A stretch of 64,000 nucleotides of DNA from the NCBI GenBank assembly GCA_018402085.1, contig JAGYJM010000002.1, positions 310,001 to 374,000 on the forward strand, in the 5' to 3' direction. Below the pieces are notes generated by a model, which was not told the origin of the DNA, ran no database searches, and was given only the letters and a program-made list of their open reading frames with translations. The DNA is from Flavobacteriales bacterium. GTDB lineage: Bacteria; Bacteroidota; Bacteroidia; Flavobacteriales_D; Sanyastnellaceae. The first letter of the stretch is position 1. Each line of letters begins with the position of its first letter. A program made the position numbers and the translations under genes. This document shows, piece by piece, positions 779 to 61,191 of this stretch.

Positions 779-810
779 CCCCGCAAAAGCGGGGGATGCG
801 AACATGTTCG
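779..810 (+). repeat. Dispersed palindromic element copy A (CCCCGC-AAAA-GCGGGG-GATG) followed by 12-bp palindrome CGAACATGTTCG
   Basis: Direct reading; 6-bp stem, AAAA loop, GATG; CGAACATGTTCG at 799-810. Confidence 0.85.
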
Positions 811-866
811 GCACGCACAGAGAGCCTCTTTTCATAGATGAAAATGTTTGCCCCGCCAGAAGAATA

Positions 867-1016
867 CCGCCCCCGATCGCAGCGGCAGCCCCTGCTTGCG
901 CGGCACCGCAAGCCCCGGTGTGCGCTGGCTTGTCTGAGAAGACAAGACCCGCGCACACCGAAAAGGGCGGCGAGTGCCGTGCAAGCAGGGCTACAGCGGA
1001 GAGCGGGAAAAGGCGG
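867..1016. repeat. ~150-bp near-continuous inverted repeat (long rod/cruciform) in the uvrD-DUF4290 intergenic region
   Basis: Nested complementary arms: 887-906/974-992, 912-915/965-968, 916-925/951-960 (10 bp perfect), 929-935/940-946 with GAGA loop at 936-939; weaker outer pairs 867-871/1012-1016. Confidence 0.8.
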
Positions 1017-1031
1017 CCAGAATCGGTTGAA

Positions 1032-3308
1032 CTACAACACTTTCAATTTGGCAAACTTCAGTAGTAACTGTTTCTGTCCGGCCTTCGGAAAGAACACGGT
1101 CGCCTTGGCATTCGGTGACTCGCCTTCCACCTTAAGCACTTTCCCTTTCCCAAAACGCGCATGCTCTACCTCAACGCCTGCAACGATCTGTGAGATGTCA
1201 ACAGGAGCCGCAGAACTGCGCTCCGCCTCGCTCAAAGGCTTCTTATTCGAGCCGCCTGAACCTCCCGGCATCTGCCGGTAGAAGCGGTTTCGGGCGTCAT
1301 CGAACGATTTGCCGCCGGCGAAGGGATCCGGACGCGCCGATGAAACGGCAGGTACGTTCAGGTACTGTTCATCCACTTCTTCAATGAAGCGGGAGGGTTC
1401 ACACTGGATCAACTGCCCCCAGCGATAGCGCGTGATTGCATACGAGAGTACGGCGCGCTTGCGGGCGCGTGTCAGTGCCACATAGAAAAGACGGCGCTCT
1501 TCTTCGAGTTCATCACGTGAGTTTAACGCCATTTGACTCGGAAAAAGATCTTCTTCAAGACCGACAATATAGATGTAGTCAAACTCAAGCCCCTTTGAGC
1601 CGTGTACCGTCATCATATTGACCTTATTGTCGTCGTCATCATCTTTGTCAGCATCAGTCAGGAGGGCAACGTCAACGAGGAAGTCAGCCATGGTGCGTAT
1701 GGCTTCCGGCTGTTGCGGATCTGACTGGTCAGCGAATTCTTTGAGGCCATTCAGCAATTCTTGAATATTGTCGTATCGAGCGACACCCTCCGGCGTTTTA
1801 TCAACGTAAAGTGTTTTCAGCAAACCCGTGTGTTGTGCGATGTGCTGACCGAGTTCATAGGCATTGACCGTTTCAACCTGAGCAGAGAAGCTCTCTATCA
1901 TCGCTTGAAAGGCCTTGAGCTTGCTCAGGGTGCCGCCATTGAATTGAAGGCCGTGCGCATGCGGCGCGGTAAGTACCTCCCAGAATGTAACCCGCTGTGT
2001 GGCGCTTGCAGCGGTCATTTTATCGAGGGTGGTTTTTCCGATGGCTCGTGCCGGATAGTTAATGATGCGCTTCAGTGATTCGTCGTCGCTATGATTGGCG
2101 GCCAGTCGGAAATAGGCGAGCAGGTCTTTCACTTCTTTGCGCTGATAAAACGATAATCCGCCATAAATACGGTAAGGCAGGTTCATTTTACGCAAGGCCT
2201 CTTCAAACGAACGCGACTGGCTGTTGGTTCGATAAAGGATGGCAAACTCTCGGTTCGGTACCTGGTGCTGATTGATGGTCTCAAAGATGGATTCGGCCAC
2301 AAAACGGCCTTCGTCATTGTCAGACAGCGCCCGGTGCAGCAAGATCATGTCACCCTCACCGTTGTCAGTCCAGACCGTCTTTTTAATCTGGTTTTGGTTC
2401 TTGTCAATGATGGAGTTTGCCGCATTGACAATAACCTTGGTTGACCGGTAGTTCTGCTCAAGTTTGTACATCCCGAAATCAGGATAATCACGCTTGAAGT
2501 TGAGTATATTGCCGATATCAGCTCCGCGAAAGCTGTAGATTGACTGGGCGTCGTCGCCCACCACACACACATTGTGATGCACAGCGCCAAGCTGTTTAAT
2601 GATCAGGTATTGCGCAAAGTTGGTGTCTTGGTACTCGTCAACTAGAATAAACTGAAATTTATGCTGGTAGCGGTGCAAAACATCAGGATGGTCTCTGAGC
2701 AGCACATTGGTTTTGAAGAGGAGATCGTCAAAATCCATAGCTCCTGAACGCTGACATCGAATGGTGTATTCTTTGTATATATCAGCGAGTCTCGGACGAC
2801 CTGCGAGGTGGTCTTCATTGATAACTTCGGTATTACGGGCGTAGGCATCCGGACCAATCAGGTTATTCTTGGCTGAAGAAATACGCGATTGCACCGATGC
2901 CGGCTTGTAGGCCTTGTCATCGAGGTTCATTGACTTGACGACATCTTTGATTACCGAACGGCTGTCTTGTGTGTCGTAAATGGTAAAATTACGGGGGTAG
3001 TTGATTTTCTCTGACTCCATGCGCAGGATGCGCGCGAAAACGGAGTGAAAGGTTCCCATCCAGATATTGGCAGATTCTTTGTCACCGATAATCTGGGAGA
3101 TCCGTTCTTTCATCTCCCGTGCCGCTTTATTTGTAAAGGTGAGCGAGAGGATAGAAAACGGGTCAACACCTTGATTGATCAGGTGTGCAATACGATAGGT
3201 GAGCACACGGGTTTTTCCGGAGCCTGCTCCGGCGATGACCATCATAGGCCCCTCTATGTGTTCAACAGCCTTTCGCTGCGCCTCGTTGAGATGATTTAAG
3301 TACTCCAC
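1032..3308 (-). CDS. UvrD/PcrA-family ATP-dependent DNA helicase
   Basis: 758 aa; LNEAQRKAVEH, AGAGSGKTRVLTYR (Walker A), DEYQDTN, QNYRST, MTVHGSKGLEFDYIYIVGLEEDLFP, ALTRARK motifs. Confidence 0.95.
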   Translation of the reverse strand: MEYLNHLNEAQRKAVEHIEGPMMVIAGAGSGKTRVLTYRIAHLINQGVDPFSILSLTFTNKAAREMKERISQIIGDKESANIWMGTFHSVFARILRMESEKINYPRNFTIYDTQDSRSVIKDVVKSMNLDDKAYKPASVQSRISSAKNNLIGPDAYARNTEVINEDHLAGRPRLADIYKEYTIRCQRSGAMDFDDLLFKTNVLLRDHPDVLHRYQHKFQFILVDEYQDTNFAQYLIIKQLGAVHHNVCVVGDDAQSIYSFRGADIGNILNFKRDYPDFGMYKLEQNYRSTKVIVNAANSIIDKNQNQIKKTVWTDNGEGDMILLHRALSDNDEGRFVAESIFETINQHQVPNREFAILYRTNSQSRSFEEALRKMNLPYRIYGGLSFYQRKEVKDLLAYFRLAANHSDDESLKRIINYPARAIGKTTLDKMTAASATQRVTFWEVLTAPHAHGLQFNGGTLSKLKAFQAMIESFSAQVETVNAYELGQHIAQHTGLLKTLYVDKTPEGVARYDNIQELLNGLKEFADQSDPQQPEAIRTMADFLVDVALLTDADKDDDDDNKVNMMTVHGSKGLEFDYIYIVGLEEDLFPSQMALNSRDELEEERRLFYVALTRARKRAVLSYAITRYRWGQLIQCEPSRFIEEVDEQYLNVPAVSSARPDPFAGGKSFDDARNRFYRQMPGGSGGSNKKPLSEAERSSAAPVDISQIVAGVEVEHARFGKGKVLKVEGESPNAKATVFFPKAGQKQLLLKFAKLKVL

Positions 3309-3330
3309 TGCGCAAAAGTAACAAAGCGCA
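3309..3330 (-). promoter_or_regulatory. Candidate Bacteroidota promoter -7 element for the uvrD gene
   Basis: Reverse strand reads TTACTTTTGCGC (TAnnTTTG) just upstream of the start codon. Confidence 0.45.
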
Positions 3331-3367
3331 TCTGGATGTGAGTGGCTTTAAACGTGTAGTTCTGTTT

Positions 3368-3395
3368 CAGCGCAAAAGCGCTGGATGTACTCATC
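3368..3395 (+). repeat. Dispersed palindromic element copy B (CAGCGC-AAAA-GCGCTG-GATG TACT CATC)
   Basis: 6-bp stem, AAAA loop, GATG/CATC second palindrome. Confidence 0.85.
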
Positions 3396-3525
3396 AGTGC
3401 CAGGTAAGGCAAAAAAAGCACCGTAAAACGACGCTTCCGAAGCTCAGATTTGTGAGATTTGCCCCTCTTTCAGCAAGAGGGTGTTCGTTTTTAACACGCT
3501 GCACTGAAATTAAAATACCCAAAGC

Positions 3526-3560
3526 CATTGAAATTCGGGAATAACCCCTTACATTTGCAG
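3526..3560 (+). promoter_or_regulatory. Candidate promoter for the ribosomal superoperon
   Basis: TTG ... 19 nt ... TACATTTG matches the Bacteroidota -33/-7 (TTTG, TAnnTTTG) pattern upstream of rpsL. Confidence 0.6.
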
Positions 3561-3578
3561 CCCCAAAAAAAATTGGGG
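3561..3578 (+). promoter_or_regulatory. 5'UTR hairpin CCCCAA-AAAAAA-TTGGGG ahead of rpsL
   Basis: 6-bp perfect stem immediately downstream of the predicted -7 element. Confidence 0.55.
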
Positions 3579-3621
3579 AAGAGTATTTTGTCGAAAACTT
3601 TTTGATAGAGAAAACCGGAAT

Positions 3622-3999
3622 ATGCCGACGATACAACAGCTCATTCGCAAGGGTCGCATCTCAAAAGTGAAGCCCAATAAATCAGCGGCGCTTGACGCTT
3701 GTCCGCAGCGTCGCGGCGTTTGCGTACGTGTTTATACAACGACTCCGAAGAAGCCAAACTCAGCGATGCGAAAGGTGGCTCGTGTGCGCCTCACCAACGG
3801 CAACGAAGTGAACGCTTACATTGGAGGCGAAGGACATAACCTTCAGGAGCACAGTATCGTTTTGGTACGCGGTGGTCGTGTTAAAGATCTTCCGGGTGTT
3901 CGTTATCACATCGTGCGCGGGGCACTTGATACCGCGGGTGTTGAAGGACGTAACCAGCGTCGTTCGAAGTACGGCACAAAACGACCTAAGAAGAAATAA
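3622..3999 (+). CDS. rpsL: 30S ribosomal protein S12
   Basis: [12 protein letters not shown]...[41 protein letters not shown]. Confidence 0.98.
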
Positions 4000-4016
4000 T
4001 TCCTTGAGATAGCGCT

Positions 4017-4484
4017 ATGAGAAGGAAAACAGCCAAAAGGATCCCCACGTTACCAGATCCGCGTTTTAATGACGTTATGGTAACCAAGTTCGTGAACAAC
4101 CTCATGCTGGAGGGCAAGAAGAGTGTTGCACTCACCATTTTTTATGATGCCATTGATCGCGTGTCTGAGAAGACCGGAGAAGACGGGCTCGAGATCTTCA
4201 AGAAAGGGTTGAGCAATGTGACGCCCGGTGTAGAGGTTCGCAGCCGCCGTGTAGGAGGGGCGACGTTTCAGATCCCGCAGCCGATTCGCGATTCAAGGAA
4301 GCTTTCCCTGGGGATGAAATGGCTGATCCGTTTTTCTCGCAAGCGCAACGAGAAAACTATGGCAGAGCGTCTCGCAGCTGAAATTATGGCTGCTGCCAAA
4401 GAAGAGGGCGCAACCTTCAAGAAAAAAGAAGAAACGCATCGGATGGCCGAGGCAAATAAAGCATTCTCTCACTTCCGTTTTTAA
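4017..4484 (+). CDS. rpsG: 30S ribosomal protein S7
   Basis: 155 aa, S7 family sequence, gene order. Confidence 0.98.
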   Translation: MRRKTAKRIPTLPDPRFNDVMVTKFVNNLMLEGKKSVALTIFYDAIDRVSEKTGEDGLEIFKKGLSNVTPGVEVRSRRVGGATFQIPQPIRDSRKLSLGMKWLIRFSRKRNEKTMAERLAAEIMAAAKEEGATFKKKEETHRMAEANKAFSHFRF

Positions 4485-4504
4485 TCGATCACGACTAGAC
4501 AACC

Positions 4505-6619
4505 ATGGCAAAAAGAGATCTCAAATTCACCCGTAATATCGGTATCGCTGCTCACATTGATGCCGGTAAAACGACCACTACAGAGCGTATTCTGTACTAT
4601 GGCGGTGTGAACCATAAAATCGGGGAAGTGCACGATGGTGGCGCGACGATGGACTGGATGGAGCAGGAGCAGGAGCGAGGTATCACAATTACTTCGGCAG
4701 CGACGACCCTCAACTGGAACTACCGCGACCAGAAGTACCATGTGAACATTATTGATACTCCCGGACACGTTGACTTTACTGTAGAGGTGAACCGCTCACT
4801 TCGTGTGCTTGACGGGCTCGTATTCCTCTTTAGCGCGGTTGACGGTGTGGAGCCTCAGTCAGAGACTAACTGGCGACTGGCCGATAATTACAACGTGCCA
4901 CGTATCGGTTTCGTCAACAAGATGGACCGTCAGGGGGCTGACTTCCTCAACGTGTGCAAGCAGGTAAAGGAGATGCTCGGCAGCCACGCGCTACCATTGC
5001 AAATTCCGATTGGTGCTGAAGACGACTTTGAGGGGGTGGTTGATTTGATCAACTTCCGCGGCATCGTCTGGAACGAAGAGGATATGGGGATGACCTTCAA
5101 GGAGGTTGAAGTTCCTGCTGACATTCTTGACGAAGCTACAGAGTATCGTGAGAAGCTTCTCGAAGCTGTTGCGGAGTTTGATGAGACCGATACCTTGATG
5201 GAGAAATTCTTCGAAGATCCTGAGTCACTCACCGAGCGCGAAATCCTCGATTGTCTTCGCCAGGCAACCATCTCCGGAAAAGTTGTTCCGATGATGTGTG
5301 GATCAGCCTTTAAGAACAAAGGTGTTCAGGCTATGCTCGATATGGTGATGGAGATTCTTCCTTCACCGCTTGACGTTGAGGCAGTAACCGGAACCAATCC
5401 TGATTCGGAAGAAGAGGAGAAGCGTCGCCCTGATTACGATGAACCTTTTGCCGCACTCGCATTCAAGATCGCAACGGATCCTTTTGTAGGTCGTCTAGCA
5501 TTTACGCGGGCATACTCAGGAGTACTTTCTTCAGGGTCTTACGTGCTGAACACACGCACAGGCAAAAAGGAGCGTATTTCGCGCATCTTCCAGATGCACG
5601 CGAATAAGCAGAATCAAATTGATCAACTGGGTGCCGGAGACATTGGCGCACTGGTTGGCTTTAAAGATATTAAGACGGGAGACACGCTCTGTGACGAGAG
5701 CAAGCCCATCGTACTGGAGTCAATGACCTTCCCTGAACCGGTTATTGGTCTCGCGATCGAACCGAAGACCCAGGCAGATGTAGATAAACTGGGTGTTGCG
5801 TTGGCTAAACTCGCAGAAGAAGACCCCACCTTCCAGGTGCGTTCGGATGAAGATACCGGCCAAACTGTCATCAGTGGCATGGGAGAGCTTCACCTCGAGA
5901 TTATCATTGACCGTTTGAAGCGTGAGTTCAAAGTGGAATGTAACCAAGGACGCCCACAGGTGTCTTACAAGGAAGCAATCACAGGATGGACTGACCACCG
6001 TGAAGTTTACAAGAAGCAATCAGGTGGACGTGGTAAGTTTGCGGATATCGTAGTGAAAATCGGACCGAACGATGACCTCGAGAACCCAGGACTGAAGTTT
6101 GTGAACAACATCAAAGGCGGTAACGTGCCTCGTGAGTTTGTTCCTTCTGTTGAAAAGGGCTTCAAAGACGCCATGCAGAATGGTGTGCTCGCAGGTTTCC
6201 CGATTGACTCAATGACTGTTGAATTGAATGACGGGTCGTTCCACCCTGTGGATTCAGATGGTTTGTCATTTGAGCTTGCCGCAAAGATGGCTTACCGTCA
6301 TGCTGTGAAGGGCTGTAGTCCGGTGATTCTGGAGCCTATCATGCAGGTTGAAGTTGTGACGCCGGAAGAGAACATGGGTGACGTGATTGGTGACCTCAAT
6401 AAGCGTCGTGCGCTGATAGAGGGTACAGATGAGCGTAACGGTTCAACTGTGATCAAGGCGAAGGTGCCTTTGAGTGAGATGTTTGGTTACGTAACGGATC
6501 TTCGCACCATCACCAGTGGTCGTGCGACCTCTTCGATGGTATTCTCAAACTTCTCGGAGGCCCCTACGAACATACAACAGCAGGTTATTGAAGAAGTAAG
6601 CGGTAAGCAAACTGCATAA
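4505..6619 (+). CDS. fusA: Elongation factor G
   Basis: [38 protein letters not shown]. Confidence 0.98.
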
Positions 6620-6631
6620 TTGACTGAGACA

Positions 6632-24094: not shown

Positions 24095-26257
24095 ATGCTC
24101 CGATTTCTACTCATCATTACTTTCACGGTACAGGCAATCTTTGCATCAGGCCAATTGAGCAATCCGGGCTTCGAAAGCTGGACCTTACTGTCAGATTTTG
24201 ATCACCCCGTGGTAAATGGCAATTCGTTTATCTCTTCGAATCTTGAAACCTTCTACGATTTCGGTATTCTTTCTTGTACAGAGGTGGCCGGCGTGCAAGG
24301 TTCGGCGATGCGTATTGAAACAGTTGAAACCGCCTCTCAAGACACCATTATAGGTTACGGAATTTGGGGCGCACCTCCTGCGGGGGAAGAGCTCCTCTTC
24401 GAAGAGGGGTTCAGTGTGACCGATCAGGAAATTACAGGCATTTCATGCGACCTGCGCTATGAAATTGATCCGTCATCCTCAGGGTTTGTTATCGTGCAGT
24501 TTAAGTTTCAAGGGGCTCCGGCAGGTGCAGGAAACTTCGGTGAAGGCACTTACTTTTTTCCGGTCAGCGGATCACAAGAAACCTTCCAGAATCAAACTTT
24601 CACGCTGAATCCCGGTATTGGAGCCCTAATCGACGAGTGCATCATCGGGTTTGCTTGCAACAACTTACTCAATGAAAACACTGAACCGGTTCCGGGTAAC
24701 TTCCTCGAAGTCGATAATGTTACGTTCACAGGATCTGAAGACATTGTACCTGGTGGAAATCTCAATGAATGGACACCTTTCACTCCTCTGCTTGTTCCTG
24801 ACGGTTGGGTCACCTCCGCAAACCCAATGGTTCCTTTCGTAGAACAATCTGAAGATGCAGCCGAAGGAAGCTTTGCCATGCAGCTCCGAACGCTTGAATT
24901 CGATGGAGATGTGACCGCGGCTATAGCGACGCAAGGCATACAGCCAGGCTCTGAATTTACGCCCGCTCAGGAATTGCCTGAGGGCTTCTATGGTTGGTCT
25001 TTTCAGTACAAGTACCTGACCGAGAATACCGATACTGCTGCCGTGCTGATCGCGATGTCAGAAGACCCAAATCCCGACCCTGAGAATACCGTTTTTCACT
25101 TTGAACCACTGCTAGCAGATGCAGCGTTCTCTGAAGTCACCATTGATTTCACAGCCTTAACTGAGCAGTTGGACCTGAATTACTTTGCCATTGCTATTGT
25201 TTCAAGTTGGGAAGATAATGGCATTCCTGACGGTAATGTACCCCAGGTTAACAGCACACTACTGGTAGATGATTTCCAGGAGCTGATCCTCGGAGATGAC
25301 CCTTGCATTTTTGATGTGGCCATTGAGCAGGGCAACGAGGTCATCCTCTGTCCCGGTGAATCCTCTGCGTTGTCAGTACCTGATGATTATGATGCCTATC
25401 AGTGGTACCGTGAACCCACTTTTGGTGGTGGTGCAGAAGAGCTTTCCGGAGAAATCACTTCACTTCTTTCGATCGACGTAGAAAACTTTGCTTTGTATAA
25501 TGTATGGTGCGAAGTAACCCTCGATGAATGCACAGAAGCTTCTGCCCCCACTGTTATCGATAGTTATGTTTTCGTTCCGACGACCATCGCCAGCAATGTC
25601 ACCGAAGCTTGTGCGCCTGAAACCGTTACGCTCGAAGCGCTTGGTGCTGAAGGAGAGGTGACCTGGCTTCAGAATGGATTTGAAATCACTGGTGAAAACA
25701 GCAATCCCATCGAGATTGATGAAACGGGATCCTATGTAGCGGTTATTTATCCGGAACTGTGTCCGAATTATGGCATTAGTAGCGGACTCGGCGTGGGTGT
25801 CACCATCTTTCCGGAGCCTGAACCTGAGCTCATTTTCCAAAATGGTCAGATCAGCATTGAGAACGGTCCTTTTGATGAGATCTCATGGCTCTTGAACGGC
25901 ATATCATATTCTAATGGTGAATTTGACGGTCAGTCTGAAATAACTCCGAATACGGATGGTGCATTCACTGTTGAAGTGCTTGACCCAAATGGATGTGAGG
26001 CGGTTTCTGACCCTTTCATGTTTACCGGTGTGAGTGAACTTAGAACCACGGTGACGTTGGCACCGAACCCTACGATGCGTTTCCTCGAAGTGCAGTCGAA
26101 TGTGCCGGGTACCTGCGAGCTCCGTGATATCAGTGGTCGTTTGGTCAGCGCAAAAGCGCTGGATGCGATGTCGCACCACTTTGACCTCATAGATGTGGCT
26201 CGCGGTGTATATCTCCTGCAGATGCACGGACGCACCTACCGAGTCATCAAACAGTAA
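24095..26257 (+). CDS. Secreted T9SS type A sorting domain-containing protein
   Basis: Signal peptide; PGFESW motif; C-terminal LAPNPTMRFLEV...ARGVYLLQMHGRTYRVIKQ. Confidence 0.8.
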   Translation: MLRFLLIITFTVQAIFASGQLSNPGFESWTLLSDFDHPVVNGNSFISSNLETFYDFGILSCTEVAGVQGSAMRIETVETASQDTIIGYGIWGAPPAGEELLFEEGFSVTDQEITGISCDLRYEIDPSSSGFVIVQFKFQGAPAGAGNFGEGTYFFPVSGSQETFQNQTFTLNPGIGALIDECIIGFACNNLLNENTEPVPGNFLEVDNVTFTGSEDIVPGGNLNEWTPFTPLLVPDGWVTSANPMVPFVEQSEDAAEGSFAMQLRTLEFDGDVTAAIATQGIQPGSEFTPAQELPEGFYGWSFQYKYLTENTDTAAVLIAMSEDPNPDPENTVFHFEPLLADAAFSEVTIDFTALTEQLDLNYFAIAIVSSWEDNGIPDGNVPQVNSTLLVDDFQELILGDDPCIFDVAIEQGNEVILCPGESSALSVPDDYDAYQWYREPTFGGGAEELSGEITSLLSIDVENFALYNVWCEVTLDECTEASAPTVIDSYVFVPTTIASNVTEACAPETVTLEALGAEGEVTWLQNGFEITGENSNPIEIDETGSYVAVIYPELCPNYGISSGLGVGVTIFPEPEPELIFQNGQISIENGPFDEISWLLNGISYSNGEFDGQSEITPNTDGAFTVEVLDPNGCEAVSDPFMFTGVSELRTTVTLAPNPTMRFLEVQSNVPGTCELRDISGRLVSAKALDAMSHHFDLIDVARGVYLLQMHGRTYRVIKQ
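26146..26175 (+). repeat. Dispersed palindromic element copy C (CAGCGC-AAAA-GCGCTG-GATGCGATGTCGCA), inside CDS
   Basis: Encodes SAKALDA in the T9SS C-terminal domain. Confidence 0.85.
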
Positions 26258-26269: not shown

Positions 26270-28672
26270 CTATTCTTTAATGAACGAGATGTTAACATCC
26301 CGCGCTTTTGCGCGGAAAAAATAAACCCCGCGAGAAAGCAAACGAATGTCAATAGGATTGCCGGTGACTCCCTCTAAAACAGTGCGCCCGGATGCATCTG
26401 CAATCTGAAACGGAAGGTTTGCCTCAAGATGGGTTTGCAATAGGTCACGAGCGGGATTGGGATAAACCAGCGGAGGGTGAGCGACGTATTCAGCCAGTCT
26501 AGTGCCGTCAGAGGGATACGCCCAGGCATAGTCTCCAGACCCCTGAAATGGAACGTCAATGAGGCCCTGGTAGTCGTTCGTCAGACCGGTGTAATTGAAT
26601 TCACTGCCTTCGATCACCTGCCATGGGGCCGAAGGGGCAGGGCGCCACACCATCCGAAGACTGTCTTCAGGATATCCGACGAACTGCATTTCAGTGAAGA
26701 AGAGCGAATCGAGGTATACATTATTATTCTGATTTCCGCGGTAGGTAAGGCGTAGCTCAGCATCCCAGTTTTCACTGTCTCGGGTGATCACACGCCAGAA
26801 ACGGTCGGTTGAAAAACGCCATTCAGGCTGTCCGACAGCGTCATCCGCAGCCGTCAGGTGGTGCTCTACCCTGACCCAGACCGAATCTTCTCCAGGAAAA
26901 TCATTAGCGGTAATTCGGAGTTCTGCAAAGTTGAACATCTCTGTACCCGTATCAATGTAGCGTTCTTCTGCAAGCACCGCCTGGTGAAGCCATTGATCGC
27001 GGTTAATAATAATGTGCTGGGGCTCAAAAGCAAGACCATCAACCGTCAGGAAATGTTGATGCCCACTCACCAGCGTTTCAACCGTATGCGTAGCTTCACC
27101 CGGTGCTCCGCTCAGCAGGGTGAGGGTAAGGGGTACATTTGTATAGTACTCGGGGGCATAATGCAGAAACTGTCGAAGCTCGATGTCGGTAGACCAGCCG
27201 TTTGATTGAGCGCTATTGGTAAAGTTGTGCAATCGAATATCAGGATAGCCCGGATTGAAAACCCAATCATCGAAGAAACTCTGGAGATTGGCATCAGTCA
27301 GCGGGTCAAGGTAGTCGCGAAGCTCCTCACTGCTAATGTCTGAAAATGCCTGGTCTTCGAGAAAAGCAGCCATATGTTCAAAGAAATCATCGCCCATGTA
27401 AACCCTGAGGTTATGCGCCACATCGGCTCCCTTTTCGTAAACGTGAGCTCCGTAGGTGTCGTCATGCCCAATGCCGTGCACGGCATAGTGACCGCCGTCA
27501 TCAGACGCAGCGTTGTACAGCACATCTTTCAGGTTGTCGAGAACGTAGGTATTGTAAGCGTCAGGTCCTTCAAGCTGCTCGAAGAATAGCGCCTCGCAGA
27601 AGCTCGCCATCCCTTCATTCAGCCACATATCTTCTTCAGAACTGCACGTCACCAGGTCTCCCCACCACATGTGTGCAATCTCATGGGCCATGAGATAGTC
27701 TAAGCCGAGTCCACTTGCCGGAAAGGCAATGTTCGTGGCATGCTCCATCGCTCCTGCGTTAAAGGGTACAGCAACATAACCTACCCGCGGCCAGCGGTAC
27801 GGACCAAAGTCTGCTTCAAATCCTTCGAGGCATGTATTGAGGTTGTCAAATGCCTCTACCATTGCGACATTTTGCCCCGGAGAAGATGCCAGCCATACCG
27901 GAATCTCGTCACCGGTAGAACTGATAAACATGGATTCATGATGCGTTAGCTCACCCACCGCAACGCTGGCGAGGTAACTGGGAATGTGTTCACTGAGTTC
28001 CCAACGTGTGAGGAGGCTGTCGCTGCCGATCGGCTCAACAGCGGTTAACAGCCCACCGCAATAAGCATTATGCTCGTCGCTTGAGAGCACTTCAATGGTG
28101 TAGGGTGAGCGTTCAACGAAATTGTCAAAGCAGGGGTGCCAAACCCTTCCGTAACTGTGCGGGTCGGCATAAAAGCCCACACCTAGGTTGTAGGCGATAT
28201 CAGATTGCCAATAGAATCCGCCCCATCCGCTTTCATCCGTAATCGGACTACCGTGGTAATGGATTCTTACCCGGGGAGTATCTCCGCTGTTCAGGGCCGC
28301 CTCGGGAGAAATCGTCAGGGTTTGCCCCGAATGTGCGAAAACCGTTTCGGCATCGTCTATGAAAACACTATCCACCGTTAGTCCTTCGAGGTCTAACAGT
28401 ATCTCCTGCAGGTCATCGATCAGCACCTCCATATCGATGATGGCGCGTGCTGAGAGTTCCTGGGCACTCCACGCGGTGAAATCCAGAAAAAGCTCGGTGT
28501 GCAGTATATCGAGTGAATCACTTCGCGAAGCTTCTGCTACTGCGCGCTTACTGTTCGATCGCATCAGGTCTTGTACTGAAAAATGTGAACCATGCGCACG
28601 TGAACAACGGTGTTCCTGTGCGACGCTTGAAATCATAGAAAAAGCGAGAATGCAGGTGATCAATGCTTTCAT
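26270..28672 (-). CDS. M1 family metallopeptidase with T9SS C-terminal domain
   Basis: MAHEIAHMWWGDLVTCSSEEDMWLNEGMASF (HExxH...E); C-terminal YPNPARDLLQ...LLSRGVYFF. Confidence 0.9.
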   Translation of the reverse strand: MKALITCILAFSMISSVAQEHRCSRAHGSHFSVQDLMRSNSKRAVAEASRSDSLDILHTELFLDFTAWSAQELSARAIIDMEVLIDDLQEILLDLEGLTVDSVFIDDAETVFAHSGQTLTISPEAALNSGDTPRVRIHYHGSPITDESGWGGFYWQSDIAYNLGVGFYADPHSYGRVWHPCFDNFVERSPYTIEVLSSDEHNAYCGGLLTAVEPIGSDSLLTRWELSEHIPSYLASVAVGELTHHESMFISSTGDEIPVWLASSPGQNVAMVEAFDNLNTCLEGFEADFGPYRWPRVGYVAVPFNAGAMEHATNIAFPASGLGLDYLMAHEIAHMWWGDLVTCSSEEDMWLNEGMASFCEALFFEQLEGPDAYNTYVLDNLKDVLYNAASDDGGHYAVHGIGHDDTYGAHVYEKGADVAHNLRVYMGDDFFEHMAAFLEDQAFSDISSEELRDYLDPLTDANLQSFFDDWVFNPGYPDIRLHNFTNSAQSNGWSTDIELRQFLHYAPEYYTNVPLTLTLLSGAPGEATHTVETLVSGHQHFLTVDGLAFEPQHIIINRDQWLHQAVLAEERYIDTGTEMFNFAELRITANDFPGEDSVWVRVEHHLTAADDAVGQPEWRFSTDRFWRVITRDSENWDAELRLTYRGNQNNNVYLDSLFFTEMQFVGYPEDSLRMVWRPAPSAPWQVIEGSEFNYTGLTNDYQGLIDVPFQGSGDYAWAYPSDGTRLAEYVAHPPLVYPNPARDLLQTHLEANLPFQIADASGRTVLEGVTGNPIDIRLLSRGVYFFRAKARDVNISFIKE
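26288..26315 (-). repeat. Dispersed palindromic element copy D (CCGCGC-AAAA-GCGCGG-GATGTTAACATC), inside CDS
   Basis: 6-bp stem plus perfect 12-bp palindrome GATGTTAACATC; encodes RAKARDV. Confidence 0.85.
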
Positions 28673-28718: not shown

Positions 28719-28744
28719 CGCCGCAAAAGCGGCGGATGCGTCAT
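28719..28744 (+). repeat. Dispersed palindromic element copy E (CGCCGC-AAAA-GCGGCG-GATGCGTCAT), intergenic
   Basis: 6-bp stem, AAAA loop, GATG. Confidence 0.85.
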
Positions 28745-42218: not shown

Positions 42219-43895
42219 TCAGAAACGATTCACATAGCCAAAATGAATACGAGCATCTCTTAGCAGAACCGGATTACCCTGTTGCCTGCCAAGGGCATAG
42301 GCAATGCGAAAAGTTCCGCCGGATGTTCCGATCAATGCCCCCGCTCCGAAACCCAGCGGGGTGTCAGTTGTGAATGCATCTGCTGTGCGCTCATACCAAC
42401 CTTGATCGCCAAAAAGGAATACCGCTGATGTGGCGTCAAGACTGTATTTGATTTCGAGCGTTCCTATGGCGTATCGGCTTGCAAAAATGCCCTCCTCATC
42501 AAATCCGCGAAGGTTATTTAAACCGCCAATTCGGTAGTGCTCATTTAGTCGAAGGGTGCTGTCTATTCGCGCAGCAACTGAGGCACGAAGTGCTATGCTG
42601 AAACGCCTGAGAAAAGGCATGTGCACACCGGCTTCTGTGATTACCTCAAATTGTTCGGTTTCCGTGACCACCGGTTCCTCGTCATCGGTAGTGAGTATTT
42701 TGAATCCTGCGCTGGCTTCGCTGTTGATGTAGTAACCTCTCAGCGGATTCAAGACGTTGTCTAGCTCAAATTGCCTGTACTTCAAACCGTAGCGTGTGAT
42801 GCTGATGTCGTCAATATCACTCACTCCCTCACGCAGCGGGTTAGAAGTCCAGCGCTCTGCAAAACCCCTCAGATAGCGATCGGCACCGAACAAATAACCG
42901 GCGCTGGCCTCGAGTTGGGTAGTAGAAAACGTACTGTCACGCCTGTAAATATCGATCTCACCCCAAATTCCCCAACGTGTCTGCAAGAGGTAGGGCAAAT
43001 TGCCGGAAGCGTAAAGACGCTGGGTTGATTGCTGAAGCCTGCGCCAACGAACATCAATGCGCTCACCACGTCTCAAAGCATTGTGAAGTGAGAGGTTGAC
43101 ATCGCCGGTCAACACAATACGCCCTGTCTGAGGATCTGGCTGAAACCCGATGACACCGTCAAATTGATTGGCCGGTTTCTCTTCAAGGTAGAGGTAAAGA
43201 TCTGCTTCGCCTTCTCTGAAGAGTACCGATGCCGGTTGCATAGGGCGCGCAAATGCAAGTTCTCTAAGACGCTGTGGTACGCGTTCCATTGCCTCTTCGT
43301 CGTACGGCTCACCCTTCAGCACACGCAGGTATTGCCTGAAGAAGGTAGCGCTGAAAGGTTTTTCAGAGCGGATGATCAGGCTGTCGAATGCAATGTATGG
43401 ACCTGTTTCTATGGCTGTCTGAAAAGACAGGATGCTATCATTTTGAACCCTCGGAGAAAAGTGTGCCACGGCAAAAGGGTAGCCGCGGGTCTCAAGTTCG
43501 CGGATTTGGAACTCTGCCGCCTGCCGGATCGATGCAGTGTCTGCGAAAAGGTAGACCGCCTTGCGCGATTGACTGTTGGTCGTAAAGCGAAATAGCGGAC
43601 CGGGATCATGCTGAACAAAAACGGTGTCAGATCTTACCTCAATGACACGCGATACAGCCGAAAGATACCCGAGATGATGGTATTGGCTTTCGAAGGTACG
43701 CAACTGGCTGCGCCAATTCAGCGCACTGTCTGGGGCTAATACCAATGTGGTGTCGGCTGACACTATAAAGAGGTGCTGAGAACAGAGTGTTTCAGTGAAT
43801 ACACCTGTGGCTAAGAAAAAAAGCAACGGTACAATAATTGCCCTCTGAGCCGCGTCATTAAAATATGATCGTATGTGGATAACCCTGTGAAACAA
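42219..43895 (-). CDS. BamA/TamA-like outer membrane protein
   Basis: Signal region, POTRA-like middle, C-terminal NNLRGFDEEGIFASRYAIGTLEIKYSLDATSAVFLFGDQG beta-barrel. Confidence 0.75.
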   Translation of the reverse strand: MFHRVIHIRSYFNDAAQRAIIVPLLFFLATGVFTETLCSQHLFIVSADTTLVLAPDSALNWRSQLRTFESQYHHLGYLSAVSRVIEVRSDTVFVQHDPGPLFRFTTNSQSRKAVYLFADTASIRQAAEFQIRELETRGYPFAVAHFSPRVQNDSILSFQTAIETGPYIAFDSLIIRSEKPFSATFFRQYLRVLKGEPYDEEAMERVPQRLRELAFARPMQPASVLFREGEADLYLYLEEKPANQFDGVIGFQPDPQTGRIVLTGDVNLSLHNALRRGERIDVRWRRLQQSTQRLYASGNLPYLLQTRWGIWGEIDIYRRDSTFSTTQLEASAGYLFGADRYLRGFAERWTSNPLREGVSDIDDISITRYGLKYRQFELDNVLNPLRGYYINSEASAGFKILTTDDEEPVVTETEQFEVITEAGVHMPFLRRFSIALRASVAARIDSTLRLNEHYRIGGLNNLRGFDEEGIFASRYAIGTLEIKYSLDATSAVFLFGDQGWYERTADAFTTDTPLGFGAGALIGTSGGTFRIAYALGRQQGNPVLLRDARIHFGYVNRF

Positions 43896-44099: not shown

Positions 44100-44513
44100 T
44101 TATTGCCACTCAAAGCTGACATCCTGCTTCAAATCAGGGTGTAAGCTTAAGGCAACCGGGCAGCTTTTTGCCGCAGCCTCGATCATGACCTGATCTTCCC
44201 TGGAAATACCAGGCATATCAAGAGTGAGTCGTATCCGAATCAGGCCTATTTTTCGTGGGTCACTTTTCATCTTTTTTTCGCAATCGGCTTTCAGCACAGC
44301 GATGCGCATCCCGCGCTTTTGCGCGGTAATTCCAATGATGGTCATCATACAACTGCATAAAGCAGCAGCCGTTAGGTCTGTGGGAGAGAAAAACCGCCCC
44401 TTCCCCCGGTTGTCAGCCGGCGCATCAGTGCTGATTTTCTCGCCGGAGCCGAGATGTGTCATCTCTGTTCGGAGATCTCCCAGGTAGTTTACTTCATACT
44501 TCATGTCGAACAT
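44100..44513 (-). CDS. OsmC family protein
   Basis: DNRGKGRFFSPTDLTAAALCSCMMTIIGITAQKRG; IEAAAKSCPVALSL. Confidence 0.88.
   Translation of the reverse strand: MFDMKYEVNYLGDLRTEMTHLGSGEKISTDAPADNRGKGRFFSPTDLTAAALCSCMMTIIGITAQKRGMRIAVLKADCEKKMKSDPRKIGLIRIRLTLDMPGISREDQVMIEAAAKSCPVALSLHPDLKQDVSFEWQ
44301..44326 (-). repeat. Dispersed palindromic element copy F (CCGCGC-AAAA-GCGCGG-GATGCGCATC), inside osmC-like CDS
   Basis: 6-bp stem plus perfect 10-bp palindrome GATGCGCATC. Confidence 0.85.
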
Positions 44514-52640: not shown

Positions 52641-53681
52641 TTAACGCTCTACAATTTCATTCGGACGTGTATTCTTCAGACTCCTGATGATCCATCGGAT
52701 CAATTCGTCTCCGTTTTCAGGTTGCACATCTATCGGCTGAGTGTACACCGGCAGCCTATCTATGCCCGGCAGGTGTTTCATCCGCATGAGGTCTTTCGTT
52801 GTGGTTACCAGAGCGTCTGCATGGTGCCGTTCAAGCGCACTTCGCCAGTCATTGAGCTTGCTGCTGTCGAAATGCTGGTGGTCACGATAGTTAAAGTGTT
52901 CTACCACTTCAAGTGTCTGACTCAGGTGCTGTTTAAGGGGTGCTGCATTCGCAATGGCGGTGACAAGCACGATGTTTTTTATTTCTTTTTCGGCCTTTCG
53001 GCCGGATGCGAACAGGGGAGCGTATACCAAACGACTCCTGAAGATACGGGTGTTCTCACCCACACAAAGCTTTTTTCGCAGATCCGAAAGCTCTGGCAAT
53101 AGCTGATCAAAATCATTGAGGCCGGTTAAGATCACTGCATTGGCATCTTGCATGCGCGACCGATGATCACGCAATCTTCCTGCAGGAAGGTAAGACTCAT
53201 CTGCCGGCAGGCTGTCGAACCGAACCAAAGCAATGTTCAAGTCACCGTGCAGTTTTCTGTGCTGAAACGCATCATCCAGGAGTACAAGTTTACAGCGATC
53301 TGACACGGCCATCTTCTCTATTCCGGTAATGCGATCTTCACATACAGCCACCGGGATGTCAGGAGAATTGAATTTGTACAACAATGGCTCATCCCCAACA
53401 TCCGATGCTTTTGCATCGTTATTTACCCAAAGAAAACCACGTGTCTTTCGCCCGTATCCGCGGCTTAAGATGCCGGGTTTATATGCAGCAAGTTCTCGGG
53501 CTAACCAAAGAGTATGCGGCGTTTTACCGGTACCTCCAAGGTGGACGTTTCCTATGACCACCGTAGGTAATTTTCCGCGCTGAGACCGCAACCAGCCCCG
53601 ATTGTAGGCATGATTGCGGAGCTTCACGATGGTGCCGTAAACCCATGACAGAGGAGTAAGAAGCTTTTGCATTCTGTACAT
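52641..53681 (-). CDS. lpxK: Tetraacyldisaccharide 4'-kinase
   Basis: VVIGNVHLGGTGKTPHTLWLA; SRGYGRKTRGFLWV; GDEPLLYK; LLDDAFQHRKL; internal ATG at 53681 avoids overlap with the divergent gene. Confidence 0.92.
   Translation of the reverse strand: MYRMQKLLTPLSWVYGTIVKLRNHAYNRGWLRSQRGKLPTVVIGNVHLGGTGKTPHTLWLARELAAYKPGILSRGYGRKTRGFLWVNNDAKASDVGDEPLLYKFNSPDIPVAVCEDRITGIEKMAVSDRCKLVLLDDAFQHRKLHGDLNIALVRFDSLPADESYLPAGRLRDHRSRMQDANAVILTGLNDFDQLLPELSDLRKKLCVGENTRIFRSRLVYAPLFASGRKAEKEIKNIVLVTAIANAAPLKQHLSQTLEVVEHFNYRDHQHFDSSKLNDWRSALERHHADALVTTTKDLMRMKHLPGIDRLPVYTQPIDVQPENGDELIRWIIRSLKNTRPNEIVER
52991..53010 (+). repeat. Variant palindromic element copy J (CGGCC-TTTC-GGCCG-GATGCG), inside lpxK
   Basis: 5-bp stem followed by GATGCGAAC as in copy A; core differs from GCAAAAGC. 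Confidence 0.5.
53399..53418 (-). repeat. Dispersed palindromic element copy G (CGATGC-AAAA-GCATCG-GATG), inside lpxK
   Basis: 6-bp stem, AAAA loop, GATG; encodes DAKASDV. Confidence 0.85.
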
Positions 53682-53701
53682 TAGCCGCAAAGTACTACGA
53701 A

Positions 53702-54796
53702 ATGAAGCTTCATCATATTGTTCAGGCGCTTGAAGAATGGGCTCCACCATCATTGCAGGAGGCCTATGACAACTCCGGACTGTTGGTGGGAGAGCCGGAA
53801 ATGGAAGTTCAGGCGGCATTGGTTTCGCTTGATTGCACCGAGGCAGTGATCGAGGAGGCCGCAGCCCGCGGAGCGAACCTTGTGATTGCGCACCATCCAG
53901 TTGTTTTTGGTGGATTGAAGCGTTTTACGGGCAGGTCTTATGTGGAGCGCACCGTCATGAGCGCGCTCCGAAAGGGGATTGCCGTTTATGCGATCCATAC
54001 CAACCTTGATAACGTGGCGCATGGTGTAAATGCCTATCTCTCATCAGTGATTGGTCTCCGGAACACCCGGATACTGAGTCCGAAAAGCGGCCTACTCGAA
54101 AAACTGGTTGTATTTGTACCATATGACCATGCGGACGCACTTCGAAATGCTATGTTCGAAGCGGGTGCAGGTAGCATCGGTAGTTACGATCAGTGCAGTT
54201 TCAACCTGAAAGGAGAAGGTACGTTCAGAGGGGGAGAGTCATCGAATCCTTTTGTGGGTGTGCAGGGCAAGCGCCATACAGAGGCCGAAACACGCATAGA
54301 GGTACTTGTAGAAAACTGGAGAATCGGAGACGTGCTGGCGGCCATGCAGCGCAACCATCCTTACGAAGAAGTGGCGTTTGACCGAATACCGCTCAGCAAC
54401 AATCACTTGCAGATAGGTTCAGGTATGATCGGTGAGCTTGATACCGCAATGAGGCTTGAAGATTTTTTTGATTTGCTCAAAACGGAGTTGAGCGTCAGCG
54501 TAGTGAAATACACCCAAAAGCTCAAAGATGAAATTCGAACAGTGGCAGTTTGTGGCGGTTCGGGATTCTTCTTGCTCCACGAGGCCATGCGATCCGGAGC
54601 TGACGTATTTGTTACCTCAGACGTCAAATACCATCAGTTTTTTGATACGGAAGACCGCATCGTTCTTGCAGATATCGGTCATTGGGAAAGTGAACATCGA
54701 ACAGTAGAGTGGGTGCGTGACTATCTCAATCAGAAAATTCCTACCTTTGCCGTTCACTTAAGTGAGATCAATACCAATCCGGTAAACTACTATTAA
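53702..54796 (+). CDS. Nif3-like dinuclear metal center protein
   Basis: EAYDNSGLLVGEPEMEVQAALVSLDCTEAVIEEA; IAHHPVVFGGLKRF; DIGHWESEH. Confidence 0.93.
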   Translation: MKLHHIVQALEEWAPPSLQEAYDNSGLLVGEPEMEVQAALVSLDCTEAVIEEAAARGANLVIAHHPVVFGGLKRFTGRSYVERTVMSALRKGIAVYAIHTNLDNVAHGVNAYLSSVIGLRNTRILSPKSGLLEKLVVFVPYDHADALRNAMFEAGAGSIGSYDQCSFNLKGEGTFRGGESSNPFVGVQGKRHTEAETRIEVLVENWRIGDVLAAMQRNHPYEEVAFDRIPLSNNHLQIGSGMIGELDTAMRLEDFFDLLKTELSVSVVKYTQKLKDEIRTVAVCGGSGFFLLHEAMRSGADVFVTSDVKYHQFFDTEDRIVLADIGHWESEHRTVEWVRDYLNQKIPTFAVHLSEINTNPVNYY

Positions 54797-54799
54797 ATT

Positions 54800-55594: not shown

Positions 55595-55616
55595 GACCGG
55601 TGTTCACATACACCAT

Positions 55617-57125: not shown

Positions 57126-58258
57126 TAACGGCCGCCGCCACTTCTACCGGTGCTCCGACCGCCACCAGAGCGTCCGCCTGAATTACGGCTTGGAGCAGCA
57201 GGTGAGGTGCTTCCACCACGACTGCGATTCATCGAAGGGGAACTTCCGCGGTTGGGAGAGGAGTTCTGACGTTGTCGGGTATTGTTACCCCCATTGTCGA
57301 AGAAATTGTCCCAATTCCAACCATTGTTGCGCTGGCGTTGTGCTGGTTGCTGGCGGGTATTTCGCTCGGCATCGTTCCCACCCCTCGGACTGTAATACTC
57401 GTAGGTGCGGTTATTGCGCGTCCGGTTCGGGCGGTAATCTGCATCTGGTGTATCGTTATTGTACGGATTGCGTTCGATGTCACCTTGCGGGCGCTCGCCG
57501 ATCTGGATCGGGCGCACATTATCGCCGGTTGTGCGCGGTGAAGCCGGATTGTACATTTGTTCTGCGCCATAACTGCCCCCTGCAGGTGTGTCTTGGTAGA
57601 CCGGAACACGCGGGCCATAATTGAAATTCGCGTTGTTACCCCAAAGGTCATTGCCCCACATGCCGTTGTTCCAGGGATTGTTCCAGGGATTGTTCCATGG
57701 GTTGTTCCATGCGTTGTTCCATGCGTAAGGATTTCCCCATCCCCATTGGTTGCCAGCGAATGGAGAGTTCCAGCCCCATGGGCTGCTCCAGGGGTCACAC
57801 ATAGGGTTGTAGAATGGATCATTCCAGCCATTGCCCCACATAGGTGAACCAAAAGCACTGTGGCCCATGAAGTAATTTGAAGGCATCATCGGATTGTTAA
57901 AGCCAACCCCCATGTTCATTCCTGGGCGCCCCCACATTGACATTACACCGAGATTGAAACGCGGCTGATTGAAGCCGTTCATATTCCCATTCCAGCGTTG
58001 TCTGAAATTCGGAATGCCTCCGCCTGCGGCATCCGGATTGTAGTAATCGTACTCTTCTCCGGCGTAGTCACTGTTATCCGGCGCTTCTGCGCCGTACTCA
58101 TCATCAGCATACTGGGCAGGCTGATCGGAAATGTACCGGTCGCCCGGACTGTAATAGAGTTCATCTGTTTCTGCCATGCCACCCGTGTAGCGCTGAGGAC
58201 TGCAGGCTGCGAGCAACAGGGTGCTCATTATTGCGATATACCAAAGTGAATTTTTCAT
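57125..58258 (-). CDS. Low-complexity Asn/Trp/Gly/Arg-rich lipoprotein
   Basis: MKNSLWYIAIMSTLLLAACSPQRYTGG lipobox; NAWNNPWNNPWNNPWNNG; the longer ORF to 59056 is antisense to proS. Confidence 0.75.
   Translation of the reverse strand: MKNSLWYIAIMSTLLLAACSPQRYTGGMAETDELYYSPGDRYISDQPAQYADDEYGAEAPDNSDYAGEEYDYYNPDAAGGGIPNFRQRWNGNMNGFNQPRFNLGVMSMWGRPGMNMGVGFNNPMMPSNYFMGHSAFGSPMWGNGWNDPFYNPMCDPWSSPWGWNSPFAGNQWGWGNPYAWNNAWNNPWNNPWNNPWNNGMWGNDLWGNNANFNYGPRVPVYQDTPAGGSYGAEQMYNPASPRTTGDNVRPIQIGERPQGDIERNPYNNDTPDADYRPNRTRNNRTYEYYSPRGGNDAERNTRQQPAQRQRNNGWNWDNFFDNGGNNTRQRQNSSPNRGSSPSMNRSRGGSTSPAAPSRNSGGRSGGGRSTGRSGGGR
57661..57728 (-). repeat. Imperfect 12-bp tandem repeat (TTGTTCCAnGnn) coding for NNPW/NNAW
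   Basis: gttgttccagggattgttccagggattgttccatgggttgttccatgcgttgttccatgcg. Confidence 0.8.
58075..58094 (-). repeat. Variant palindromic element copy I (CGGCGC-AGAA-GCGCCG-GATA), inside CDS
   Basis: 6-bp stem, one loop mismatch and GATA instead of GATG; encodes GAEAPDN in the same frame as the AKA copies. Confidence 0.55.
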
Positions 58259-58366
58259 AGTCTGCTCCTCTTCTTTAAATACAATCTTACGCCGTGAATC
58301 CCTCTGATTAGCAAGGTAAGATTTTGTTACTTTGCACACCCTATAAGCTACAATAATTATACCAAA

Positions 58367-59839
58367 ATGGCAAAGCTGACATCGCGGGAGCAAGATTATT
58401 CGAAATGGTACAATGAATTGGTCGTTCAGGCTGATCTGGCGCAACATTCGGACGTGAAAGGATGCATGGTGATCAAACCGTACGGGTTTGCCATCTGGGA
58501 ACGAATGCGCGAAGTACTGGATGGTATGTTCAAGGCAACGGGGCACCAGAATGCCTATTTTCCGCTTTTTATTCCAAAATCGTACATGAGCCGTGAGGCT
58601 GCGCACGTAGAGGGTTTTGCCAAAGAGTGCGCTGTAGTCACGCATTACCGCCTGATGAACGATCCGGAAACCGGAGAAATCATTGTAGATCCGGAAGCAA
58701 AGCTCGAAGAAGAACTTATTGTACGTCCGACTTCTGAAACCATCATCTGGAATACTTACAAAGGCTGGATCCAGAGCTACCGGGATCTTCCCATTCTGGT
58801 CAATCAGTGGGCCAATGTGGTGCGCTGGGAGATGCGAACACGTCTTTTCTTGCGTACTGCAGAATTTCTTTGGCAAGAAGGACATACCGCCCATGCCACC
58901 AGAAACGAAGCCATCGAAGAAGCCACGCAAATGCTGGATGTGTATGCCGATTTCGCTGAAAAGTGGATGGCAATGCCGGTGGTCAAAGGCGTTAAAAGTG
59001 AAGCTGAGCGCTTCGCCGGTGCGGAAGATACCTATTGCATCGAGGCGCTGATGCAAGACGGGAAAGCACTTCAGGCAGGAACCTCACATTTTCTCGGACA
59101 GAATTTCGCGAGGGCATTTGATGTGCAGTTTCAGACCAAAGAGGGCGGATTGGAGTATGTTTGGGCTACGAGCTGGGGTGTTTCAACCCGGTTGATGGGA
59201 GCACTCATTATGACACATTCAGACGATAAAGGGCTGGTACTTCCACCAAAGTTAGCTCCTATTCACGTGGTGTTTGTTCCAATCTATAAAACAGATGATC
59301 AACGTGCCGCAGTATGCGAGAAGGGTGCAGAATTGTGTGATGCACTCATTGGGCAAGGCTATGAAGCGAAACTGGATGATGATGACACGAAGCGTTCAGG
59401 CTGGAAGTTTGCAGAGTATGAGTTGAAAGGGGTGCCGGTGCGTGTTGCCATGGGGCCGCGGGATCTCGAGAACGGCACTGTTGAGATCGCCCGCCGAGAC
59501 ACTGGAGAAAAAGAATTGGTTCCGCTTGAGGAGGCAAAAGATTACATCGTGAAAATGCTGGAGCTTATTCAGGAAGAACTCTACACGAAGGCACTTAATC
59601 ATCGCGTAGCGCACACCACACGGGTAGATACCTGGGAAGAATTCAAAGAAGTGCTCGAAGGCAAGGGCGGATTTATTGAAGCGCACTGGGACGGCACAAG
59701 CGAAACCGAAGAGAAAATCAAGGATGCCACGAAGGCAACCATTCGCTGCATTCCACTTGATCAGAAAGAAGAAGAGGGAAGATGTATTTTCTCAGGCAAT
59801 CCGTCAAGGGGTCGCGTATTATTTGCAAAAGCTTACTAG
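58367..59839 (+). CDS. proS: Prolyl-tRNA synthetase
   Basis: [61 protein letters not shown]-terminal RVLFAKAY. Confidence 0.98.
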
Positions 59840-59842
59840 ACT

Positions 59843-60529
59843 ATGGAGGAATCAAAAGACAGGATGCTGAAGCTGATCCGTGAGCGGGCAGTGGTGAAAC
59901 AGGATGTGTACGATGAAACGTTGCGGACTTTTACCGAGCTGAAAGAAGTACTTAAAGAATGCGTTGAGGAAATCAGTGATTCATTCGGACACGACGATGA
60001 CCGGGTAGAGTTTTACTACAAAGATAAGGGCACCTTTGAAGCAGAGGTGAAGATTGCCGGTGATGTACTGATTTTTCACATGCACACGAACGTCTTCCAG
60101 TTTGATCGTTCGCACAGTTTATGGAAGAGCAGCTACCTACAGGAAGATGAACTGAACGGTTATGTGGGTCTCGTCAACGTATACAATTTTCTGGCAGATT
60201 CGTTTAAGTACCAGCGCCTCCACGACCGTGGGTATATGATCGGACGAATGTTTGTCAACCGCGAGGGCCACTTCATGGTGCAGGGAAAACGACAGTTAGG
60301 CTATATGTTCAATGATTTCATCAATAGTAAGGTCTCACGTGAAGAGCTGCGCAAATTTGTACATGCCTCTATCGTATACACGCTTGGATTTGATCTTTAT
60401 GCCCCACCTTTTCAGCAGGTACAGGAAGTGACGATCCAACAGATTCAGGCCATGAGCAGCCACTTGCAGATCGTGACCGGCAAACGTCTGGGATTCAAGT
60501 TTAGTTTTGACGACGACGTTGAGGGCTAA
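59843..60529 (+). CDS. Conserved hypothetical protein
   Basis: 228 aa, 3 nt downstream of proS, good coding character. Confidence 0.7.
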   Translation: MEESKDRMLKLIRERAVVKQDVYDETLRTFTELKEVLKECVEEISDSFGHDDDRVEFYYKDKGTFEAEVKIAGDVLIFHMHTNVFQFDRSHSLWKSSYLQEDELNGYVGLVNVYNFLADSFKYQRLHDRGYMIGRMFVNREGHFMVQGKRQLGYMFNDFINSKVSREELRKFVHASIVYTLGFDLYAPPFQQVQEVTIQQIQAMSSHLQIVTGKRLGFKFSFDDDVEG

Positions 60530-60567
60530 AAAAAAATGCAACCTCCATTTGCGGAGACCGTAAGAGG

Positions 60568-60582
60568 TCTTATATTTGCACT
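60568..60582 (+). promoter_or_regulatory. Candidate -7 element for tRNA-Glu
   Basis: TATATTTGCAC (TAnnTTTG). Confidence 0.55.
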
Positions 60583-60596
60583 CCAATTCTAACAAT

Positions 60597-60668
60597 GGCC
60601 CGTTCGTCTAGGGGTTAGGACGCCAGGTTTTCATCCTGGTAGCAGGGGTTCGATTCCCCTACGGGCTA
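60597..60668 (+). tRNA. tRNA-Glu (anticodon TTC)
   Basis: Cloverleaf: GGCCCGT/ACGGGCT acceptor, CCAGG TTTTCAT CCTGG anticodon arm, AGGGG TTCGATT CCCCT T arm. Confidence 0.95.
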
Positions 60669-60764
60669 CGAATAGAAAGCAGAACTACGGTTCTGCTTTT
60701 TTGCTTTCTGACCGTTCATCCCATTTATCTGCTGTCTATTTCAAATCGATCACACCTTGCGGGC

Positions 60765-61145
60765 ATGAACGCCATTCACACCTCATCGATGCGCCTAAGT
60801 CTGCGCCTTGAAGCGGCTGCCCTTTGCGCTGCTGCGATCGCGCTGACCTTCATCTACTATCCACTTGTCTCGTGGTGGGTGTACCTGCTGCTGTTTTTTA
60901 CGCCTGATATCGGCATGCTTGGTTATCTGGTTTCACCGAAGGTTGGCGCATTTTCGTACAATTTGCTGCACCATCAAGGGGTTGCTCTGCTGACCTGTGT
61001 CGCTGGCGGACTGCTGGGTTCAGAAGTTGTGATCTTCATCGGAATGCTGCTCTTCGCGCACAGTGCCTTTGACCGGGTGTTTGGGTACGGACTGAAGTAT
61101 GCTACAGACTTTAAGGATACCCACCTGGGGCGGATAGGGAGGTAG
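60765..61145 (+). CDS. DUF4260 family membrane protein
   Basis: FFTPDIGMLGYLVSPKVGAFSYNLLHHQ...FAHSAFDRVFGYGLKY. Confidence 0.85.
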   Translation: MNAIHTSSMRLSLRLEAAALCAAAIALTFIYYPLVSWWVYLLLFFTPDIGMLGYLVSPKVGAFSYNLLHHQGVALLTCVAGGLLGSEVVIFIGMLLFAHSAFDRVFGYGLKYATDFKDTHLGRIGR

Positions 61146-61171
61146 GTCTATCGCATTTACGCTTCTTTTTT

Positions 61172-61191
61172 CAATGCAAAAGCATTGGATG
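61172..61191 (+). repeat. Dispersed palindromic element copy H (CAATGC-AAAA-GCATTG-GATG), intergenic
   Basis: 6-bp stem, AAAA loop, GATG. Confidence 0.85.

Follow-up and report, generated by a model that had tools for sequence, protein, structure and literature searches.

Chi sites are short linear words that are skewed to the leading strand, and the palindromic elements of Rickettsia, which are far longer than 20 bp, are inserted into genes. The genome-wide signal motifs that we know of (uptake sequences, Chi, KOPS and HIP1) are all fixed words. Uptake sequences lie within open reading frames without orientation bias, are believed to build up through point mutations and have been described as non-palindromic (PMC1939737). 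The tag of repetitive extragenic palindromic (REP) elements and their REP-associated tyrosine transposases (RAYT) is GTAG/GTGG or CGTC (PMC3733652), while HIP1 of cyanobacteria (GCGATCGC) is one fixed perfect octamer (PMC4390886). Here, we describe a family of 20-bp elements, each a hairpin followed by the tetranucleotide GATG, starting from a 64-kb stretch (hereafter the window, positions 310001-374000 of contig C2) of the 3.78-Mb, two-contig genome of a Flavobacteriales bacterium.

The family has much in common with the uptake signal sequences (USS) of Haemophilus and the DNA uptake sequences (DUS) of Neisseria, namely a copy number of about 10^3 per genome, an occurrence in both orientations within and outside coding DNA, a build-up by point substitution and some inverted pairs; the AT-rich flanks of the USS have a parallel in a T-rich flank here. 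However, USS and DUS are fixed linear words, whereas here the arms are free and only the pairing, the loop and the tail are fixed, the spacing is orientation-specific and the genome lacks a PilB-type ATPase gene. We suggest, with a probability of about 0.5, that the hairpin is a shape-coded self-DNA signal, i.e., a strand-specific hairpin of single-stranded DNA, spread through the genome by biased allele replacement, by which a species-specific reader would handle incoming or damaged DNA strand by strand, sorting, protecting or recombining it.

The window contains the eight strict copies of CNNNGCAAAAGCNNNGGATG that the preliminary description had listed, all with perfectly complementary arms, whereas dinucleotide shuffles give 0.00. 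Two minus-strand copies, listed at 26288 and 44301, in fact lie at 26296-26315 and 44307-44326 (Table 1). Beyond the strict set, the window holds two copies with a GAAA loop and one with a GATA tail. The genome-wide pattern search that had been proposed returned 317 strict copies, split 165 to 152 between the strands, while the reversed-pattern control gave none; the number of copies rises to 404 once the first loop base may be A or G. Detailed analyses were carried out on 1.66 Mb of the genome (44%), taken as stretches, in which there are 385 copies of a wider form, corresponding to about 860 per genome by extrapolation; 378 of them were kept after removal of a tandem array and of copies without full context.

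This wider form is a 16-nt hairpin with a 6-bp stem, an outer C-G pair and a 4-nt loop of the class [AG][AG]AA (AAAA, GAAA or AGAA, the main loops in a loop-unrestricted scan), with an unpaired GATG directly 3′ of it. A stem of six and a loop of four beside GATG occur 214 times in 864 kb, compared to twice in Markov sequence, and neighbouring geometries are near background. The outer pair is C-G in 376 of the 378 copies. The covariation of the arms noticed in the window holds far beyond it, all four Watson-Crick types being found at each of the five inner pairs, and the inner GC...GC that had been taken as fixed is merely the commonest inner stem among 85 different stems. Perfect stems outnumber those with one mismatch by 365 to 7, and a further 71 perfect hairpins carry a one-letter variant of the tail, mainly GATA, GATT or GAAG. 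The base at position -1 is C in 13/378 copies (25% in the genome, p 4e-31), and a C there would make the stem longer by pairing with the G of GATG. Around the 20-bp unit, the 5′ side is weakly enriched in T, and there are slight preferences at +20 to +23 and +30; as the downstream columns do not exceed 0.23 bits, the second palindrome reported after GATG is not a general feature. Since the pairing, length, loop and tail are fixed while the bases are free, the hairpin must be read as a folded strand. HIP1 is likewise a highly iterated palindromic motif of unclear function, but it has neither the loop and tail nor the variable arms of this hairpin. Other recurrent hairpins, unrelated to the GATG family, were seen on contig C2 at 1.1-1.5 Mb; examples with 13-15 copies each are an AGGA loop followed by the tail GCAA, an ATA loop followed by CCCC, and loops of the TATAA type.

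The hairpin family had no matches in two congeners. In 111 other members of the taxonomic family there were 0-2 pattern matches each, the listed ones with non-complementary arms, as chance predicts, and in a sample of 395 genomes of the class the others had 0-3 matches, again mostly with non-complementary arms. A scan of genome contigs gave scattered single matches among the matches listed, and the motif was not found in viral contigs scanned for the three commonest stems. No analogous hairpin family of this type was found in samples of up to 20 kb from 20 relatives, by a test that scores positive on 20-kb pieces of the host genome.

When all copies are pooled, their spacing is Poisson-like, and a regular spacing irrespective of orientation was therefore rejected. 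At distances of up to 2 kb, same-orientation pairs occur at 0.3-0.7 times the expected number, and they are back at the expected level by about 7 kb, whereas opposite-orientation pairs show no depletion. The coefficients of variation per strand are 0.67-0.80, compared to 0.98-0.99 in simulations, and when positions were fixed and orientations permuted, 38 of the 143 pairs within 2 kb were in the same orientation against 71±5.9 expected. This deficit of same-orientation pairs holds for pairs in different genes (8:31), for pairs that are both intergenic (5:17) and for mixed pairs (7:29); the avoidance is gone past about 4-7 kb, and none is seen at distances above 7 kb. A bias towards one replication strand was not found either, the two orientations numbering 64 and 69 in 600 kb over which the GC skew is uniform. 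Hence, the copies of each orientation are spaced separately over about 2 kb, independently of the direction of replication, and avoidance between same-orientation copies without avoidance between opposite ones implies that recognition is polar or proceeds strand by strand, with a range of about 2 kb. Among pairs 100-300 bp apart, 13 are tail-to-tail, one is head-to-head and two are in the same orientation, in coding and intergenic settings alike; the window copies at 26146 and 26296 are such a tail-to-tail arrangement. The only direct-repeat cluster seen is the tandem array at C1:127984-128980, seven copies of a 157-167-bp unit with a hairpin in each (stem CAGCGT, loop GAAA or AAAA), all in one orientation, which adjoins GC-rich inverted repeats.

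A polar, per-orientation spacing over about 2 kb is also what could be expected of a Chi-like or self-marking site, at which an AddAB-type helicase-nuclease or a species-specific nuclease would read the hairpin on the unwound strand and stop degrading, so that a site would be needed every few kilobases on each strand. AddB-type nuclease genes are present in the genome, the motif is species-specific and arises in place, and Chi is likewise a polar motif scattered through coding DNA. However, in contrast to Chi, the motif is a structured hairpin with free arm bases, its orientations are balanced without a leading-strand skew, and AddAB-type genes occur in both motif-free congeners as well as in the host, which makes this explanation unlikely in our view.

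Based on gene calls from codon-model predictions, which are approximate, 257 of the 378 copies (68%) lie inside predicted coding sequences (CDS) and 115 are intergenic. Relative to their gene, 176 coding copies are on the same strand and 81 on the opposite one, and 154 share a single frame (same-strand phase 2), in which they mostly encode x-x-A-[K/E]-A-x-D; several of these fall at signal-peptide cleavage regions, e.g., FCAKAQD. The AGAA loop, which changes K to E and gives AEA, is in the phase-2 frame in 54/65 cases and intergenic in three, whereas AAAA and GAAA loops are common in intergenic copies. This confinement of the AGAA loop mostly to one reading frame indicates that the host protein selects the loop variant, and both arms and loops vary among copies in a way that fits the encoded protein. 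The excess of same-strand copies would suit an RNA element in transcripts, i.e., a terminator, a processing site or a regulator, but the 81 antisense copies, the lack of a preferred direction of intergenic copies relative to the flanking genes, a T-tract on the wrong side for a terminator and a spacing that is orientation-specific regardless of genes render this very unlikely. As copies run both ways relative to genes and keep their orientation-specific spacing in all contexts, DNA rather than RNA would be what is read.

We then compared coding copies with their orthologues. DNA alignments to both congeners pass ungapped through the copies in two genes that we take to be parB-like and gcvT, and protein comparisons at elements were ungapped in 20 of 26 cases, the remainder having gaps of mixed small size. 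In a stricter orthologue set, gaps occurred at 1/16 elements and 21/321 random positions, and in a looser set at 12/48 and 216/1471, the gaps in the latter set ranging from 1 to 9 residues without a shared length. In the window, the lpxK copy has no insertion relative to LpxK of PDB 4ehw, and the copy in the OsmC-like gene has no gap relative to PDB 2pn2. In the absence of element-sized insertions, the coding copies therefore arose by point substitutions in existing sequence. The Rickettsia elements are also palindromic DNA within genes in a fixed reading frame; in contrast, the present element is 20 bp long and leaves no in-frame gaps of its own size at coding copies. Orthologue identity is slightly lower at the element (about 0.5, compared to 0.6) and alike in both arms (0.50 and 0.48), and this equal divergence rules out fold-back copying of one arm. 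The near-absence of stem mismatches is what template switching would yield, as in a functionless mutational by-product such as quasipalindrome correction. However, both arms are changed relative to orthologues, and such a process does not account for the constancy of the loop class and of the GATG tail, for a stem of exactly 6 bp whose extension by a seventh pair is disfavoured, or for the orientation-specific spacing; we regard it as the least probable of the explanations.

The preliminary description had likened the family to ordinary REP elements mobilised by a RAYT transposase. Much of the likeness stands: a dispersed, species-specific family of high copy number, a short hairpin whose foot carries a tetranucleotide, complementary changes in the stem, some close inverted pairs and one Y1 gene in the genome. 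The mobile behaviour does not, since the copies are mainly genic rather than extragenic and lack the signature of insertion at coding positions, where the proposal is already contradicted, and since their arms and loops differ so as to suit the encoded protein. In addition, the tetranucleotide is GATG/CATC rather than GTAG or CGTC, the 85 stems share flanks only to the extent of a weak bias, and the Y1 gene is not flanked by the hairpin, as the search for a Y1 or RAYT gene between copies revealed (the nearest copy is 1.5 kb away). Hence, we consider REP mobilisation highly improbable, even more so than an RNA element.

This Y1 (HUH) gene, the only one in the genome, encodes a Y1_Tnp protein with the motifs DHIH and YLRKQEAFH, and the hairpins could be candidate sites of this protein, acting as a domesticated single-strand endonuclease that nicks or protects DNA. 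It would recognise the hairpin with the adjoining tetranucleotide (a CATC-hairpin on the complementary strand), the sites being selected rather than transposed. Such HUH proteins do read a hairpin and the tetranucleotide at its foot (PMC6006769), the two motifs are kept, and neither congener has a close relative (no match in G002 and a 20%-identical one in G001, C22:32593-32988). However, related Y1 genes occur in 115/395 genomes of the class and the hairpin motif in one, the gene has no flanking hairpin, and by its motifs the protein fits subclass 1.2 of TnpA_Y1, which has been described as lacking REPs (PMC6006769). Taken together, this makes a role as Y1 sites quite unlikely, more so than a Chi-like role.

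The anatomy, the polarity and the in-place origin of coding copies were computed, and from these we infer a function for the hairpin family, a step that every explanation shares. That the hairpin serves as a self-DNA signal in transformation or recombination, read as a single-stranded hairpin, is our tentative proposal, to which we give somewhat less than an even chance. A putative species-specific reader would recognise the hairpin on single-stranded DNA, or act unidirectionally from it, within a range of a few kilobases, to the advantage of sequences that lie nearer to the motif. The likeliest setting would be single-stranded conspecific DNA that enters and integrates during natural transformation, in which one copy per imported strand would suffice and a second on the same strand would add nothing; a rule of one copy per strand over a few kilobases would be expected of a mechanism that assesses each imported or resected single strand on its own. 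Biased allele replacement would then spread the motif wherever proteins tolerate the change. The signal would thus resemble in its action the uptake signals of Haemophilus or Neisseria, except that a strand-specific hairpin would be read, and not by a type IV pilus.

Several observations weigh against a self-DNA signal. ComEC is present in the host but also in both congeners, which have no motif. The PF00437 (PilB/T2SSE) ATPase was not found in the host genome, whereas both congeners have one of 484 aa, and this absence argues against classical type IV pilus uptake. The repulsion between same-orientation copies could also come from a directional machine on double-stranded DNA. Finally, the hairpin family is known from one genome only, so that neither drive nor selection can be traced among strains.

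Table 1. Hairpin copies in the window and two of the coding sequences that contain them (window positions).
Feature	Position	Strand	Context
Hairpin copy, stem CCCCGC, AAAA loop, GATG	779..798	+	intergenic
Hairpin copy, stem CAGCGC	3368..3387	+	intergenic, flanked by divergent genes
CDS	24095-26257		penicillin-binding-protein C-terminal match and weak Por secretion-tail match
Hairpin copy, stem CAGCGC	26146..26165	+	within CDS 24095-26257, phase 2, encodes VSAKALD
CDS	26270-28672		peptidase M1, weak Por secretion-tail match
Hairpin copy, stem CCGCGC	26296..26315	-	near 3′ end of CDS 26270-28672, phase 2, encodes FRAKARD
Hairpin copy, stem CGCCGC	28719..28738	+	intergenic, flanked by divergent genes
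Wider-family copy CTGTCT-GAAA-AGACAG + GATG	43415..43434	+	
Hairpin copy, stem CCGCGC	44307..44326	-	within OsmC-like gene 44100-44513, phase 1, encodes AQKRGM
Hairpin copy, stem CGATGC	53399..53418	-	within lpxK gene 52641-53819, phase 2, encodes NDAKASD
Variant-tail copy CGGCGC-AGAA-GCGCCG + GATA	58075..58094	-	
Hairpin copy, stem CAATGC	61172..61191	+	intergenic, flanked by convergent genes
Wider-family copy CGGCGA-GAAA-TCGCCG + GATG	63250..63269	+	

In summary, through point mutations, including ones that changed amino acids in ordinary enzymes, hundreds of loci have come to share one precise hairpin with free bases, and such convergence implies a strong genome-wide pressure on DNA structure within coding sequence. 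The orientation-specific spacing provides a testable statement on the reader, namely that its action, with a range of about 2 kb, would be directional or would treat each strand by itself.

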